From contig NZ_JAJGSX010000016.1 in assembly GCF_021245725.1 (NCBI RefSeq), positions 124,001-188,000 of the forward strand: a DNA stretch of 64,000 bases. The letters run 5' to 3'. Position numbers and translations under genes: made by a program. Each line of letters opens with the position of its first letter. Positions within the stretch are counted from its first letter, which is position 1. Below the pieces are notes generated by a model that ran no database searches, had not been told where the DNA came from, and saw nothing but the letters and a program-made list of their open reading frames with translations. Positions 9,967 to 44,373 of the stretch are shown one piece after another. Source of the stretch: Pseudonocardia sp. TRM90224 (GTDB lineage Bacteria; Actinomycetota; Actinomycetes; Mycobacteriales; Pseudonocardiaceae).

Positions 9967-10112
9967 GAGGGCAGCAAAGCCACTTTCCGGCCCTCACAGG
10001 GCAGGAAAGTGGCTTTCCTGCCCTCGTGTGCGGAACGCACGCATCCCGGCGTGGCCCCGCGGGGCCGTGCCAGGAGAGTGGCTTTCCTGGCAACGTGTGC
10101 GGTGCGCAGGCA
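9967..10112. repeat. Type C composite palindromic repeat, copy 1
   Basis: The core at 9967-10025 holds two facing copies of the AAAGCCACTTTCC palindrome. It is followed by a small dyad (TGCGGAACGCA, 10029-10039) and, about 40 bp on, a half element GAGTGGCTTTCC with a GTGTGCGGTGCGCA tail to 10112. Copy 1 lies between the divergent P450 and DUF1152 genes, unlike most other copies, which are 3' of genes. Confidence 0.85.
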
Positions 10113-15140: not shown

Positions 15141-15199
15141 GAGGGCAGGAAAGCCACTTTCCTGCCCTGTGAGGGCCGGAAAGTGGCTTTCCTGCCCTC
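15141..15199. repeat. Type C palindromic repeat, copy 2
   Basis: Two facing palindromic units around GGAAAGccaCTTTCC, separated by TGCCCTGTGAGGGCC. Located between the convergent gtrA-like gene and the CoA-transferase gene. The outer arms can pair into one long stem, or each half can fold alone. Confidence 0.9.
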
Positions 15200-28221: not shown

Positions 28222-28300
28222 GAGGGCAGGAAAGCCACTTTCCTGCCCTGTGAGGGCCGGAAAGTGGTTTTCCTGCCCACGCGTGCGGAACGCACGCATC
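28222..28300. repeat. Type C palindromic repeat, copy 4
   Basis: Core double palindrome with one change from the consensus (GTGGTTTTCC instead of GTGGCTTTCC), followed by the TGCGGAACGCA dyad. It occupies the gap between the convergent acyl-CoA dehydrogenase and HxlR genes. Confidence 0.88.
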
Positions 28301-41362: not shown

Positions 41363-42514
41363 ATGCTCGACACCACGCCGGCCACCGGACCGCTGGCCGG
41401 GGTGGTCGTCGCCGACTTCTCCCGCATCCTCGCCGGCCCGTACGCGACCATGCTGCTCGCCGACCTAGGCGCCACCGTGATCAAGGTCGAGGGGCCGGGG
41501 ACCGGCGACGACACCCGCACCTGGACGCCGCCACGCGCTGATGACGGCACGGCCACGTACTACCTGTCGATCAATCGGAACAAGCACTCGATCGTGCTCG
41601 ACCTGCGTGATCCCGGCGACCTCGACGTCGCGCGCACGCTCGCGGCGCAGGCCGACGTCATGATCGAGAACTTCAAGCCGGGCGGGCTGGTGCGTTTCGG
41701 GCTCGACCACCCATCGGTCGCGGAGACGAATCCCGGCGTCGTCTACTGCTCCATCAGCGGGTTCGGGCCGGCCGAGGGGGCGGCGCTGCCGGGGTACGAC
41801 CTGCTCGTGCAGGCGACGTCCGGGCTGATGAGCCTGACCGGGGAGGCCGACGGGCCTCCGTTGCGGGCCGGGGTCGCCGTCTTCGACGTGATCACGGGCC
41901 TGCACGCCGCGGTCGCGATCCTCGCGGCGCTGCGGCACCGCGAGATCACCGGCGAGGGTCAGCACGTCGAGACGAACCTACTCTCGGCGGCCCTGTCCGG
42001 GCTGGTCAACCAGACGTCGGCGTACCTGGCGGGCGGCGTCGTGCCGGGGCGGATGGGCAACGCGCACCTGAGCCTGTTCCCGTACGAGCCGCTGCCGACC
42101 GGCGACGGAGACCTGATCGTCATCGCGGCCAACGACGGGCAGTTCCGCAAACTCGCGACCGCCATCGGCGCGCCCGAGCTGCTCGACGACCCGCGCTTCG
42201 GATCGATGGCCGACCGCAACGCCAACCGCGACCAGCTGCGCCCGCTGCTTCTGGAACGGCTCGCGACGCGCTCGGCGCAGGAGTGGTTCGACGTGCTCAG
42301 CGCGGCCGGGGTGCCGTGCGGCCCGATCAACACCATCGACAAGGGCATCGAACTGGCCGGCAAGCTCGGCCTCGACCCCGTTGTCGAGCCCGACGGCGTA
42401 CCCAGCATCCGCAACCCCGTCAGCTACTCCGCCACCCCACCCTCCTATCGCCGCAAACCACCGGCCCTGGGCGCCGACGGCGACGCCGTCCGCGCCTGGC
42501 TCCAGGACCAATGA
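41363..42514 (+). CDS. CaiB/BaiF (family III) CoA-transferase
   Basis: A 383-aa family III CoA-transferase, which moves CoA between acids through an aspartyl-anhydride intermediate. It shows 'LAGPYATMLLADLGATVIKVE' at the N-terminus, 'SINRNKHSIVLDL', and the catalytic Asp in 'GYDLLVQATSG'. It may activate the acid that the adjacent thiolase and hydratase later degrade. Its TGA stop overlaps the first unit of the downstream 22-bp tandem array. Confidence 0.93.
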   Translation: MLDTTPATGPLAGVVVADFSRILAGPYATMLLADLGATVIKVEGPGTGDDTRTWTPPRADDGTATYYLSINRNKHSIVLDLRDPGDLDVARTLAAQADVMIENFKPGGLVRFGLDHPSVAETNPGVVYCSISGFGPAEGAALPGYDLLVQATSGLMSLTGEADGPPLRAGVAVFDVITGLHAAVAILAALRHREITGEGQHVETNLLSAALSGLVNQTSAYLAGGVVPGRMGNAHLSLFPYEPLPTGDGDLIVIAANDGQFRKLATAIGAPELLDDPRFGSMADRNANRDQLRPLLLERLATRSAQEWFDVLSAAGVPCGPINTIDKGIELAGKLGLDPVVEPDGVPSIRNPVSYSATPPSYRRKPPALGADGDAVRAWLQDQ

Positions 42515-42895
42515 GTCGCGCGTTCGGGAGCGGTGAGTCGCCGCTCTTGGCACGGTGAGTCGCCACCTCCGGCACGGTGAGTTGTCACTTTTGGCACGGT
42601 GAGTTGTCACTTCTGGCACGGTGAGTCGCCACCTCTGGCACGGTGAGTCGCCACCTCTGGCACGGCGGATCGCACGTCCTGGCGCGGTGGCGCACCGTGC
42701 TGCAAGTGTCGACTCACCGTGCTGGAGGTGTCGACTGACCGCTGGGGCGTGGGACTCGCGCGCGGAAATGTGGCATTCGCGCGCGGAAACGTGGGACTCG
42801 CCCGCTGGGACGTGGGACTCGCGCGGTGGGACGTGAGACTCGCCCGCTGGGACGTGGGACTCGCGTGTTGAAACGGGGGACTCGCCGTGCTTGGG
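42513..42895. repeat. Minisatellite: 22-bp array, inverted units, then 21-bp array
   Basis: Eight direct 22-bp units (GAGTCGCCACCTCTGGCACG+GT type) run from 42513 to ~42688, starting within the stop codon of the CoA-transferase gene. They are followed by two units of the same family in inverted orientation (~42693-42736, CACCGTGCTGGAGGTGTCGA+CT type). Seven 21-bp units (GTGGGACTCGCGCGCGGAAA+C type) then run from 42749 to 42895. Units differ by several substitutions. There are no unique spacers, so it is not CRISPR. The 455-bp gap 42515-42969 holds nothing else. Confidence 0.92.
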
Positions 42896-42969
42896 GTGTC
42901 GACTCGGCTGGACGTGCCGGAGCCGCGACGGCCTGATCTCCGTCGCGGCTCTGGCAGGCAGGGCGTCAG

Positions 42970-44373
42970 TCAGTTCCCGAAGGGGCTGCTGCCGCCGAAC
43001 GGTGTGGACGACGGGGTCTGCCCGCCGGTGGTGGTGGCCGCGCGGTCGGGCTGGCTGCCGAGCGTGACCTGGACGGTGCGGGTGGTGCTGCCGCTGCCGA
43101 CGGTGAGGCTGATCTGCTGGCCGGGGGCGTAGGAGCCGATGCGGGCGATGAGGTCGGCGAAATCCTCGATCGTCGCGTCGCCGACCTTCGTGATGACGTC
43201 GCCTGCCACCAGTCCGGCCTGCGCCGCGGGCGAGCCCTCCTGCACGGTCGCGAGCTGCGCGCCCGCGCCGCCCGTCCCGGTCGACGTCGACCGCCCGGTC
43301 ACGCCCAGCACGGGCTTGGTGGCCGTGCCCGTGTCCATGATCTCCTGCGCGATCCGGCGCGCCTGGTCGATCGGGATCGAGAAGCCGAGGCCGGTGCTGC
43401 CCTGCGAAGCGATGGCGGAGTTGATGCCGACCACCTGCCCGTCGAGGTTCACCAGCGGGCCACCGGAGTTGCCGGGGTTGATCGGCGTGTCCGTCTGCAG
43501 CCCGTTGTAGACGACGGCCTGGCCGTCCTCGCCCTGCACCTGGACGGTCCGGTTGAACGCGCTCACGATGCCGGTGGTGACGGTGCCGGTGAGGCCCTGC
43601 GGCGAGCCGATCGCGACGACCGGCTGCCCGACCTGCAGACCCGCGCTCTGGCCGAGCGCCGCGGGGGTGAGCCCGGACGCCCCCTCGATCTTGATGACGG
43701 CCAGGTCGTAGCTCGGCGAGGTGCCGACGACCCGTGCGCTGTGCGTGCTGCCGTCCGCGAGCGTGACGGTGATGTCGCCCGTCGAGCCGGCGACGACGTG
43801 GTTGTTGGTGAGCACGTTGCCGTCGGCGGTGAGGACGACGCCGCTGCCCTCCGCCGCGCCGCCGTTCAGCGCGACCCTGATGTCGACGGTGCTCGGCGTG
43901 GCCTTCGCCGCGGCGGCGGCCACCGACCCCGGCACGAGGCTCGCGGAGCTCGACGACCCGGGAGCCGCCGTGAGCTGCGGGTTACCGCTGCCGTTGCCGA
44001 GCAGCGCGTACGCGCCGCCGAACCCGGCGCCACCGCCGATGACGCCGGCGATGAGGGCAGCCGCCACGATCCCTTTCATCGTGCGCGGCGCCCGCGGCTG
44101 CTGCGGTGGTGCGTATGTCCGGTCGGGGGGCCAACCACCGTTCGGCGGGCCGCCTGCCGACCAGGCCGGGCCGGCGGCGGGGGGAGCCGCCGGCCCGGGG
44201 TTCTGGTACCCGCCAGGATAGGGCGCGAACGGCGTTCGGCTAGGGGTTGCCTCCGGCGCGTCGGGTGCAGGTGCCCCCGCGAAGGCCGGAATGCGGTGCT
44301 GCTCGTGCTGCTGATCGGTGCCGACGGTCGAGGCGCTTGCGTCCCGGCCCAGCTCCCTCTGCTCGTCGCTCAT
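42970..44373 (-). CDS. HtrA/DegP-type membrane-anchored serine protease with PDZ domain
   Basis: A 467-aa PepD/HtrA-like quality-control protease. A ~98-residue Pro/Gly-rich cytoplasmic tail precedes one membrane helix (residues ~101-124). The extracytoplasmic trypsin domain has the triad His192 (NNHVV), Asp223 (SYDLAVIKI) and Ser303 (GNSGGPL). A PDZ domain spans ~365-450, followed by a low-complexity Thr/Ser/Gly tail. It should degrade or refold misfolded envelope proteins. It is transcribed alone toward the minisatellite, with the GH3 gene 64 bp upstream on the same strand. Confidence 0.94.
   Translation of the reverse strand: MSDEQRELGRDASASTVGTDQQHEQHRIPAFAGAPAPDAPEATPSRTPFAPYPGGYQNPGPAAPPAAGPAWSAGGPPNGGWPPDRTYAPPQQPRAPRTMKGIVAAALIAGVIGGGAGFGGAYALLGNGSGNPQLTAAPGSSSSASLVPGSVAAAAAKATPSTVDIRVALNGGAAEGSGVVLTADGNVLTNNHVVAGSTGDITVTLADGSTHSARVVGTSPSYDLAVIKIEGASGLTPAALGQSAGLQVGQPVVAIGSPQGLTGTVTTGIVSAFNRTVQVQGEDGQAVVYNGLQTDTPINPGNSGGPLVNLDGQVVGINSAIASQGSTGLGFSIPIDQARRIAQEIMDTGTATKPVLGVTGRSTSTGTGGAGAQLATVQEGSPAAQAGLVAGDVITKVGDATIEDFADLIARIGSYAPGQQISLTVGSGSTTRTVQVTLGSQPDRAATTTGGQTPSSTPFGGSSPFGN

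Follow-up and report, generated by a model that had tools for sequence, protein, structure and literature searches.

We found that the tandem-repeat array between two convergent genes in the window, a 64,000-nucleotide stretch of contig 22 from a 9.38 Mb genome in 113 contigs, is one of many dispersed arrays and not a private minisatellite. With a probability that we put at roughly 40%, these are phased polar arrays of an asymmetric DNA–protein site at gene 3′ ends, which when loaded with protein would form a barrier to RNA polymerase; their role at gene ends is probably that of a terminator or roadblock. The orientation of the arrays, their contact with stop codons, their inward facing, their whole-turn spacing and their near-exclusivity with hairpins fit a DNA-bound polar gene-end device. 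Judged from sequence, the arrays suggest an undescribed protein-bound marker of gene ends, and among the options listed by the first-pass annotation of this DNA a protein-binding array is the one favoured by the data.

The array spans positions 42511-42907 and was detected independently by Tandem Repeats Finder and a repeat finder (Table 1). The annotation had described a minisatellite at 42513-42895 with eight direct 22-bp units, two inverted units and seven 21-bp units. The repeats proved real, but the bounds were slightly wider and enclosed an extra inverted unit at the far border. The direct run does start at the CoA-transferase stop, but it consists of a leader, six 22-mers and one degenerate 21-mer. 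The counts of the other units were correct, but the 21-mers were found to be inverted too, because on the minus strand they share GAGTC with the 22-mer. There is a single orientation switch at about 42690, and the array therefore faces inward from each of the two convergent genes. The 21-mers resemble GCGAGTCCCACGTCCCAGCGG when read on the minus strand and have the sense of the protease gene, one of the seven carrying GAATG in place of GAGTC. The leader is close to GTGAGTCGCGCGTTCCGGAGCG, a sequence read at other array borders. When the segment was mononucleotide-shuffled 200 times, no units appeared (maximum 0 matches at ≤2 mismatches), and the 64-kb window gave no Rfam match at the gathering score.

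Table 1. The repeat array and its neighbours, in window positions
Feature	Position	Strand	Remarks
CoA-transferase family III gene	41363..42514	+	gene call; Pfam PF02515, E 3.8e-114
CoA-transferase TGA stop	42512-42514	+	inside first repeat unit
Leader unit ATGAGTCGCGCGTTCGGGAGCG, holds the stop codon	42511..42532	+	6 mismatches to 22-mer consensus
Six 22-bp units, consensus GTGAGTCGNCACNTNNNGCACG	42533..42664	+	0-2 mismatches
Degenerate 21-bp unit GCGGATCGCACGTCCTGGCGC, distal end of direct run	42665..42685	+	4 mismatches
Two inverted 22-bp units	42696..42739	-	0 and 1 mismatch
Seven 21-bp units, minus-strand consensus GCGAGTCCCACGTNCNNGCGG	42739..42885	-	0-5 mismatches; GAGTC core
22-bp-like inverted unit, border beside minus-strand gene	42886..42907	-	3 mismatches
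Separate hairpin, 17-bp arms, between array and protease stop	42915..42956		repeat finder
Trypsin-like serine protease with PDZ domain, convergent neighbour	42970..44373	-	Pfam PF13365, PF13180; stop at 42970

A search of the genome with a two-unit pattern (≤3 mismatches) returned 348 matches (149 plus 199) and none for the reversed control. Related arrays elsewhere in this number argue against an inert local relic, which the annotation had allowed for. The arrays were analysed in a sample of three parts: 780 kb of contig 37, taken regardless of arrays; the initial 20 kb of contig 22; and 54 stretches surrounding array places among the matches listed. With an array defined as units of ≤3 mismatches chained to a unit of ≤1 mismatch, the sample yielded 60 arrays with 313 units, 47 of them one-way and 13 two-way. 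The 22-mer consensus, drawn from 301 units, was GTGAGTCG[ACT]CAC[TC]T[CT][CT][GA]GCACG, and the spacing of 22-mers was exactly 22 bp in 236 of 238 cases (spacings up to 70 bp). A CRISPR array is ruled out because the 22-mers abut with no spacers between them, in agreement with the annotation. The 21-mers formed 28 runs, 20 in the same sense and 8 in the opposite one, and were spaced by 21 bp in 109 of 113 cases; of the 20 instances in which they adjoined 22-mers, 17 had them on the gene-distal side with the same sense, the window array being among the other three. At the gene side of several one-way arrays the border often reads aGGTGAGTCG (or CAGGTGAGTCG), while inner units read CACGGTGAGTCG; the sequences look as if the element had a defined end. 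Single copies of GAGTCG were not enriched after the stops of 690 non-array genes of contig 37, with 15 sense and 12 antisense occurrences within 60 nt and 12 for the reversed control.

We next consider how the arrays lie relative to genes, which were called by a script that had learned codon usage from 257 long reading frames, a non-standard caller whose errors affect the assignment of neighbours. The 60 arrays comprise 73 one-sense runs, of which one lacks a called neighbour. A same-sense gene preceded 55 of the 72 scorable runs, with 17 placed otherwise, and among runs within 150 bp of a gene the figure was 53 of 63. One-way arrays with both neighbours called had the same sense in 29 cases and the opposite sense in 5 (p 4e-5, 13 at contig ends excluded), and all 13 two-way arrays pointed inward. 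The 46 arrays with both neighbours lay between 22 convergent, 21 same-strand and 3 divergent pairs; the corresponding numbers for the 697 gene pairs of contig 37 were 135, 428 and 134. The annotation had reported a repeat start fused to a stop codon, and this was confirmed as a recurrent trait: a TGA stop fell inside a unit, in one register, in 12 of the 55 same-sense runs (p 7e-12, with a uniform offset assumed). Five of these 12 had a whole matching unit in the coding end and two more a related leader unit. Units were seen to reach into coding sequence at L099, L116, L123, L143, L145 and in two contig-37 genes, so that the C-terminal tails of seven called proteins, ESTPPAR or ESRVPER for example, are encoded by the array. 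About a quarter of the runs are exceptions that have no preceding same-sense gene. Some of these belong to two-way arrays or lie at contig ends, and at least five are one-way arrays of this genome with both neighbours called. In 14 of the 60 arrays no called gene was met before the contig end, and such arrays may be incomplete.

Hairpin elements occupy other gene ends of the same genome. Contig 37 carries two hairpin families 3′ of genes, TTCCCCACCGTTTTG and CAGGAAAGCCACTTTCCTG. Of 68 convergent gaps measuring 60 bp or more, 20 hold the first and 16 the second, and none holds both (p 0.0017). One same-strand gap holds both, and in 117 divergent gaps the first was found 3 times and the second not at all. 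A hairpin family was present in 2 of 21 array convergent regions versus 36 of 67 non-array contig-37 gaps (p 3e-4), a comparison that is unmatched because arrays were the criterion for choosing the former loci and the latter came from one contig. The window array itself has a hairpin alongside (Table 1). Elsewhere in the window, a 30-bp imperfect palindrome, AGGGCAGGAAAGCCACTTTCCTGCCCT, lies at 9968-10025, 15141-15198 and 28222-28278 and represents one of the two hairpin families that this genome often carries at gene 3′ ends. Downstream regions of contig 37 (L039-L077) showed a second palindromic family around TTCCCCACCGTTTTGCC, whose 8-mers were present in up to 52 of 358 such regions.

Searches of other genomes revealed a patchy distribution. 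The pattern of the window units was found in 2 of 62 genomes of the genus, with 348 matches in the window's own genome, 6 in G014 and none in the other 60. A shorter pattern matched 9 of 390 family genomes, among them five congeners (G008, G012, G014, G017 and G060) besides the genome itself. Of 394 genomes of the class, 10 contained three GAGTCG cores at exact 22-bp steps. Six of these genomes belong to the family of G675, and in two of the ten (G462 and G515) the matches are simple 11-bp repeats. When the spacing was left free, 208 of 245 genomes of the G675 family matched, many of the matches listed being coding repeats, and the nine strongest had 62-207 matches versus 0-10 in the control. 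Among 200 genomes of the window's family, 109 matched, mostly with one to few matches each, and high counts were reached in G324 (212), G335 (121) and G102 (88). Scanning contigs with the long pattern found nothing; the shorter core gave 17 stretches, and the seven examined came from Pseudonocardia eucalypti (four), Actinophytocola gossypii and two Nocardioides. The G675 family is presumably Nocardioidaceae, since arrays of this type are present in named Nocardioides records. GAGTCG-core arrays with otherwise different units thus recur in other Pseudonocardiaceae and in this second family, and collections of plasmids and phages gave no array match. When orthologs were compared, the thiolase gene and the CoA-transferase gene lay at separate places among the listed congener matches. 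Since most genomes of the array-bearing families have no dense arrays, the function cannot be general.

The placement at gene ends extends beyond this genome. Among arrays elsewhere, 101 of 137 scorable ones follow a same-sense gene (p 2.5e-8 with relatedness ignored, and related species inflate the counts), 36 do not, and 3 were unscorable. Of 19 same-sense runs in G874, 5 have the TGA stop within TGAGTCG, which is also the register of the window's genome. Two further observations concern the variety of the units. A 22-bp array of G027 (L362:3018-3232), 14 bp away from a stop codon and followed by a DUF222 gene, has a GAGTT core, so the core itself can drift. Two genomes of another genus of the family (G197 and G213, g11) contain 21-bp arrays such as GCGAGTCGACCCTCCAATCAC in small numbers.

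The period of the arrays was surveyed in 30 second-family genomes picked for high counts, at one locus each and with spacings of 12-42 bp allowed. Fourteen loci had a period of 32, ten of 22, two of 31 and one of 21, the remainder being one irregular and two coding loci; all 27 regular arrays therefore had periods of 21, 22, 31 or 32 (L262, with period 21, lies partly inside a called gene). We also pooled loci outside the window's genome, with identical arrays removed and 51 arrays inside called genes set aside. The pool held 140 non-coding arrays, 17 irregular and 123 regular, and the modal period was 21, 22, 31, 32 or 33 in 111 of the 123 (61 at 22 and 44 at 32), part of the pool having been found beforehand with a fixed 22-bp pattern. 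Other periods made up 12 of the 123, for example 24 bp in L187 and 19 bp in L188, two short non-coding GAGTCG arrays that are exceptions to whole-turn spacing. Within the pool, thirty loci of the window's family, mostly from low-count genomes, included 14 non-coding arrays with scattered periods (15, 18, 22, 25, 34, 36, 38) and only 3 at 22; these are background and count against a universal rule. The 32-bp unit of G874 has about 22 conserved and about 10 variable positions. Phasing on B-DNA predicts steps of 10-11 bp, and the periods 21, 22, 31, 32 and 33 correspond to two or three helical turns.

In the reading that we prefer, the window array is one copy of a dispersed gene-end element built from asymmetric sites of about 20-22 bp that contain GAGTC(G) and stand head to tail. 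The element sits close after the stop codon and in most cases points the same way as the gene, its units being two or three helical turns apart. A putative sequence-specific DNA-binding protein would load on one helix face along the array, and RNA polymerase coming out of the gene may be blocked by the loaded array in a polar manner; facing arrays would block both convergent polymerases. The arrays would fulfil the role played elsewhere by hairpin elements at gene ends, and their copy number may grow by slippage or recombination. Orientation, location and spacing are observed here, whereas a bound protein and its consequences for transcription are inferred.

The main competing explanation is a selfish or MITE-like extragenic element with no host function, which would accumulate at gene 3′ ends because it causes the least damage there; core and period would then be features recognised by a spreading enzyme, perhaps a DUF222-HNH protein. 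We regard this as unlikely, and several findings speak for it. The amplification is patchy among lineages, as the counts in the genus illustrate, the gene-side border is often similar, and units extend into coding ends. Moreover, several arrays of this genome precede a repeated 1.3-1.9-kb segment with a same-sense DUF222 plus HNH gene. The genome has at least 30 DUF222 matches (best 30 of 68 candidates), and of nine copies listed, six begin about 400-720 bp after an array, one does not and two are cut by contig ends, which gives six of seven resolvable copies. Same-sense DUF222-HNH genes at this distance were noted at L104, L106, L115, L120, L144, L148, L379 and L380. The whole repeated protein matched DUF222 plus HNH in Pfam, and its 90-residue DUF222 fragment matched nothing. 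Against the involvement of this protein, a DUF222 profile built from 27 proteins and applied to flanks of about 1.5 kb or more detected no DUF222 frame at any of the 97 loci in other genomes that carry regular non-coding arrays, while it detected all 5 of the genome's own DUF222 loci and 10 of its 54 array loci; most of its arrays have no such gene near them. Over 176 loci from other genomes the profile found a single DUF222 frame, at L190, which is not an array locus, and tblastn found none in 182 loci (6 of them from the window's genome, many overlapping or array-less). In other Pseudonocardia a 22-bp array lay near only 1 of 30 DUF222 loci, with GAGTT for GAGTC, and DUF222-rich congeners, for example G037 and G061, have no match to the pattern of the window units. 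DUF222-HNH as a general partner is ruled out outside this genome by the 0 of 97 array loci, and we read these genes as riders on arrays, not as a general factor. To our knowledge, head-to-tail arrays at whole-turn spacing are not a feature of MITEs, which also counts against a selfish element. In favour of a selfish element, REPs likewise supply stop codons in many cases (PMC3733652).

The helical spacing, the inward orientation and the enrichment between convergent genes would be expected of a phased binding array for a chromosome-organising or topological factor, similar to gyrase, SMC or a nucleoid protein, that acts at convergent ends, where positive supercoils meet, and is not a terminator. 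Gyrase is bound by BIME-2 elements according to the relevant part of PMC2817692. By itself, such a factor predicts neither the stop-codon contact nor the near-exclusivity with hairpins, and we consider it a rather improbable explanation.

An RNA element in the 3′ UTR, in which long hairpins between facing arrays stabilise the mRNA or are cut by RNase III, is more improbable still. The annotation had proposed that the array and its inverted units could fold, and this holds for the window array (z -7.95) and for the two-way arrays, all 13 of which folded far better than shuffles (z -5.1 to -21.4), as inverted repeats must. It does not hold for one-way arrays. We folded the 22-mer part of 41 of the 47, those that had three or more units and did not exceed 200 bp, against 30 shuffles each, some at contig ends being possibly cut two-way arrays. 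The mean z was +0.43 in the sense direction, with 0 of 41 below -2, and +0.71 in antisense. Because one-way arrays fold no better than shuffles, an RNA hairpin is unlikely as the common element, and the folded 3′-UTR RNA suggested by the annotation is unlikely as a common principle; helical spacing, in addition, is meaningless for unpaired RNA. An intrinsic terminator, judged on fold, does not describe the unfolded one-way arrays, and the annotation was right to set the ordinary hairpin terminator aside.

About 29 nearly identical 22-bp units stand in tandem at G675:C14:191562-192206, which may be a sign of recent expansion. Neutral minisatellites, born of replication slippage and dispersed by recombination, would account for such near-identical long runs and for the proximity of contig ends to arrays, 14 of the 60 having no gene before the end, but are very improbable given an orientation, a stop adjacency, a common core and period classes in two families that they leave unexpected.

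As for the protein-loaded barrier, the textbook account has bacterial transcription end either at RNA hairpins or through Rho. The arrays would indicate a third, DNA-bound means of marking where genes end. They offer a ready bait for pulling out the factor and may also explain contig breaks in such genomes. Searches of the open-access literature gave no earlier description of these arrays. A survey of prokaryotic satellites, in the sections that cover this point, places transposed non-coding long-repeat satellite families only in Leptospira interrogans and Methanocella conradii (PMC6749651), and the main text of RepRanger has no mention of Nocardioides, Pseudonocardia or GAGTC (PMC12306157).

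Among known systems, REPs are high-copy, intergenic and often found 3′ of genes or in convergent gaps, as described in part of PMC3733652, and clusters of REPs and BIMEs are bound by proteins, as outlined in part of PMC2817692. The arrays resemble them in being high-copy, clustered and located at gene 3′ ends and in convergent gaps. They differ in that their units stand head to tail, in 47 one-way and 13 inward blocks, whereas REP units alternate; in that REPs are palindromic whereas one-way arrays have no fold (0 of 41 below -2); and in that their units mostly follow the sense of the gene. REPs are also tied to a transposase, of the Y1 (RAYT) type, and its family PF01797 gave no match at E 0.001 in this genome (96.7% complete assembly), while 5 of 14 control genomes were positive. 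With no one-way fold and no Y1 transposase, membership of REP/RAYT is ruled out.

Mycobacterial MIRUs, with units of 53-101 bp, lie inside operons in tandem and in the sense of the neighbouring gene, and meet stop codons at TGA. The arrays are likewise tandem, gene-sense and in contact with stops at TGA, but their units are of 21, 22 or 32 bp and they are enriched between convergent genes. Iterons are direct repeats of about 22 bp at whole helical turns, bound by protein at a plasmid origin beside a Rep gene. The arrays share direct repeats at whole turns (27/27 in abundance-picked genomes and 111/123 in the pool), but they are many and lie at gene ends, whereas iterons form one array at a replication origin. 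In eukaryotic rDNA, Sal-box terminators are tandem, polar and 3′ of genes, and terminate through bound TTF-I and not through an RNA hairpin. We know of no homology between Sal boxes or TTF-I and the arrays, and the likeness is one of functional analogy only. By this analogy it is conceivable, if doubtful, that Actinomycetota possess a protein-dependent polar gene-end system in which arrays of evolving asymmetric sites, helically phased at two or three turns, would stop polymerase directly behind stop codons and shield convergent genes with the help of a fast-evolving DNA-binding factor, as a bacterial counterpart of Sal box and TTF-I.
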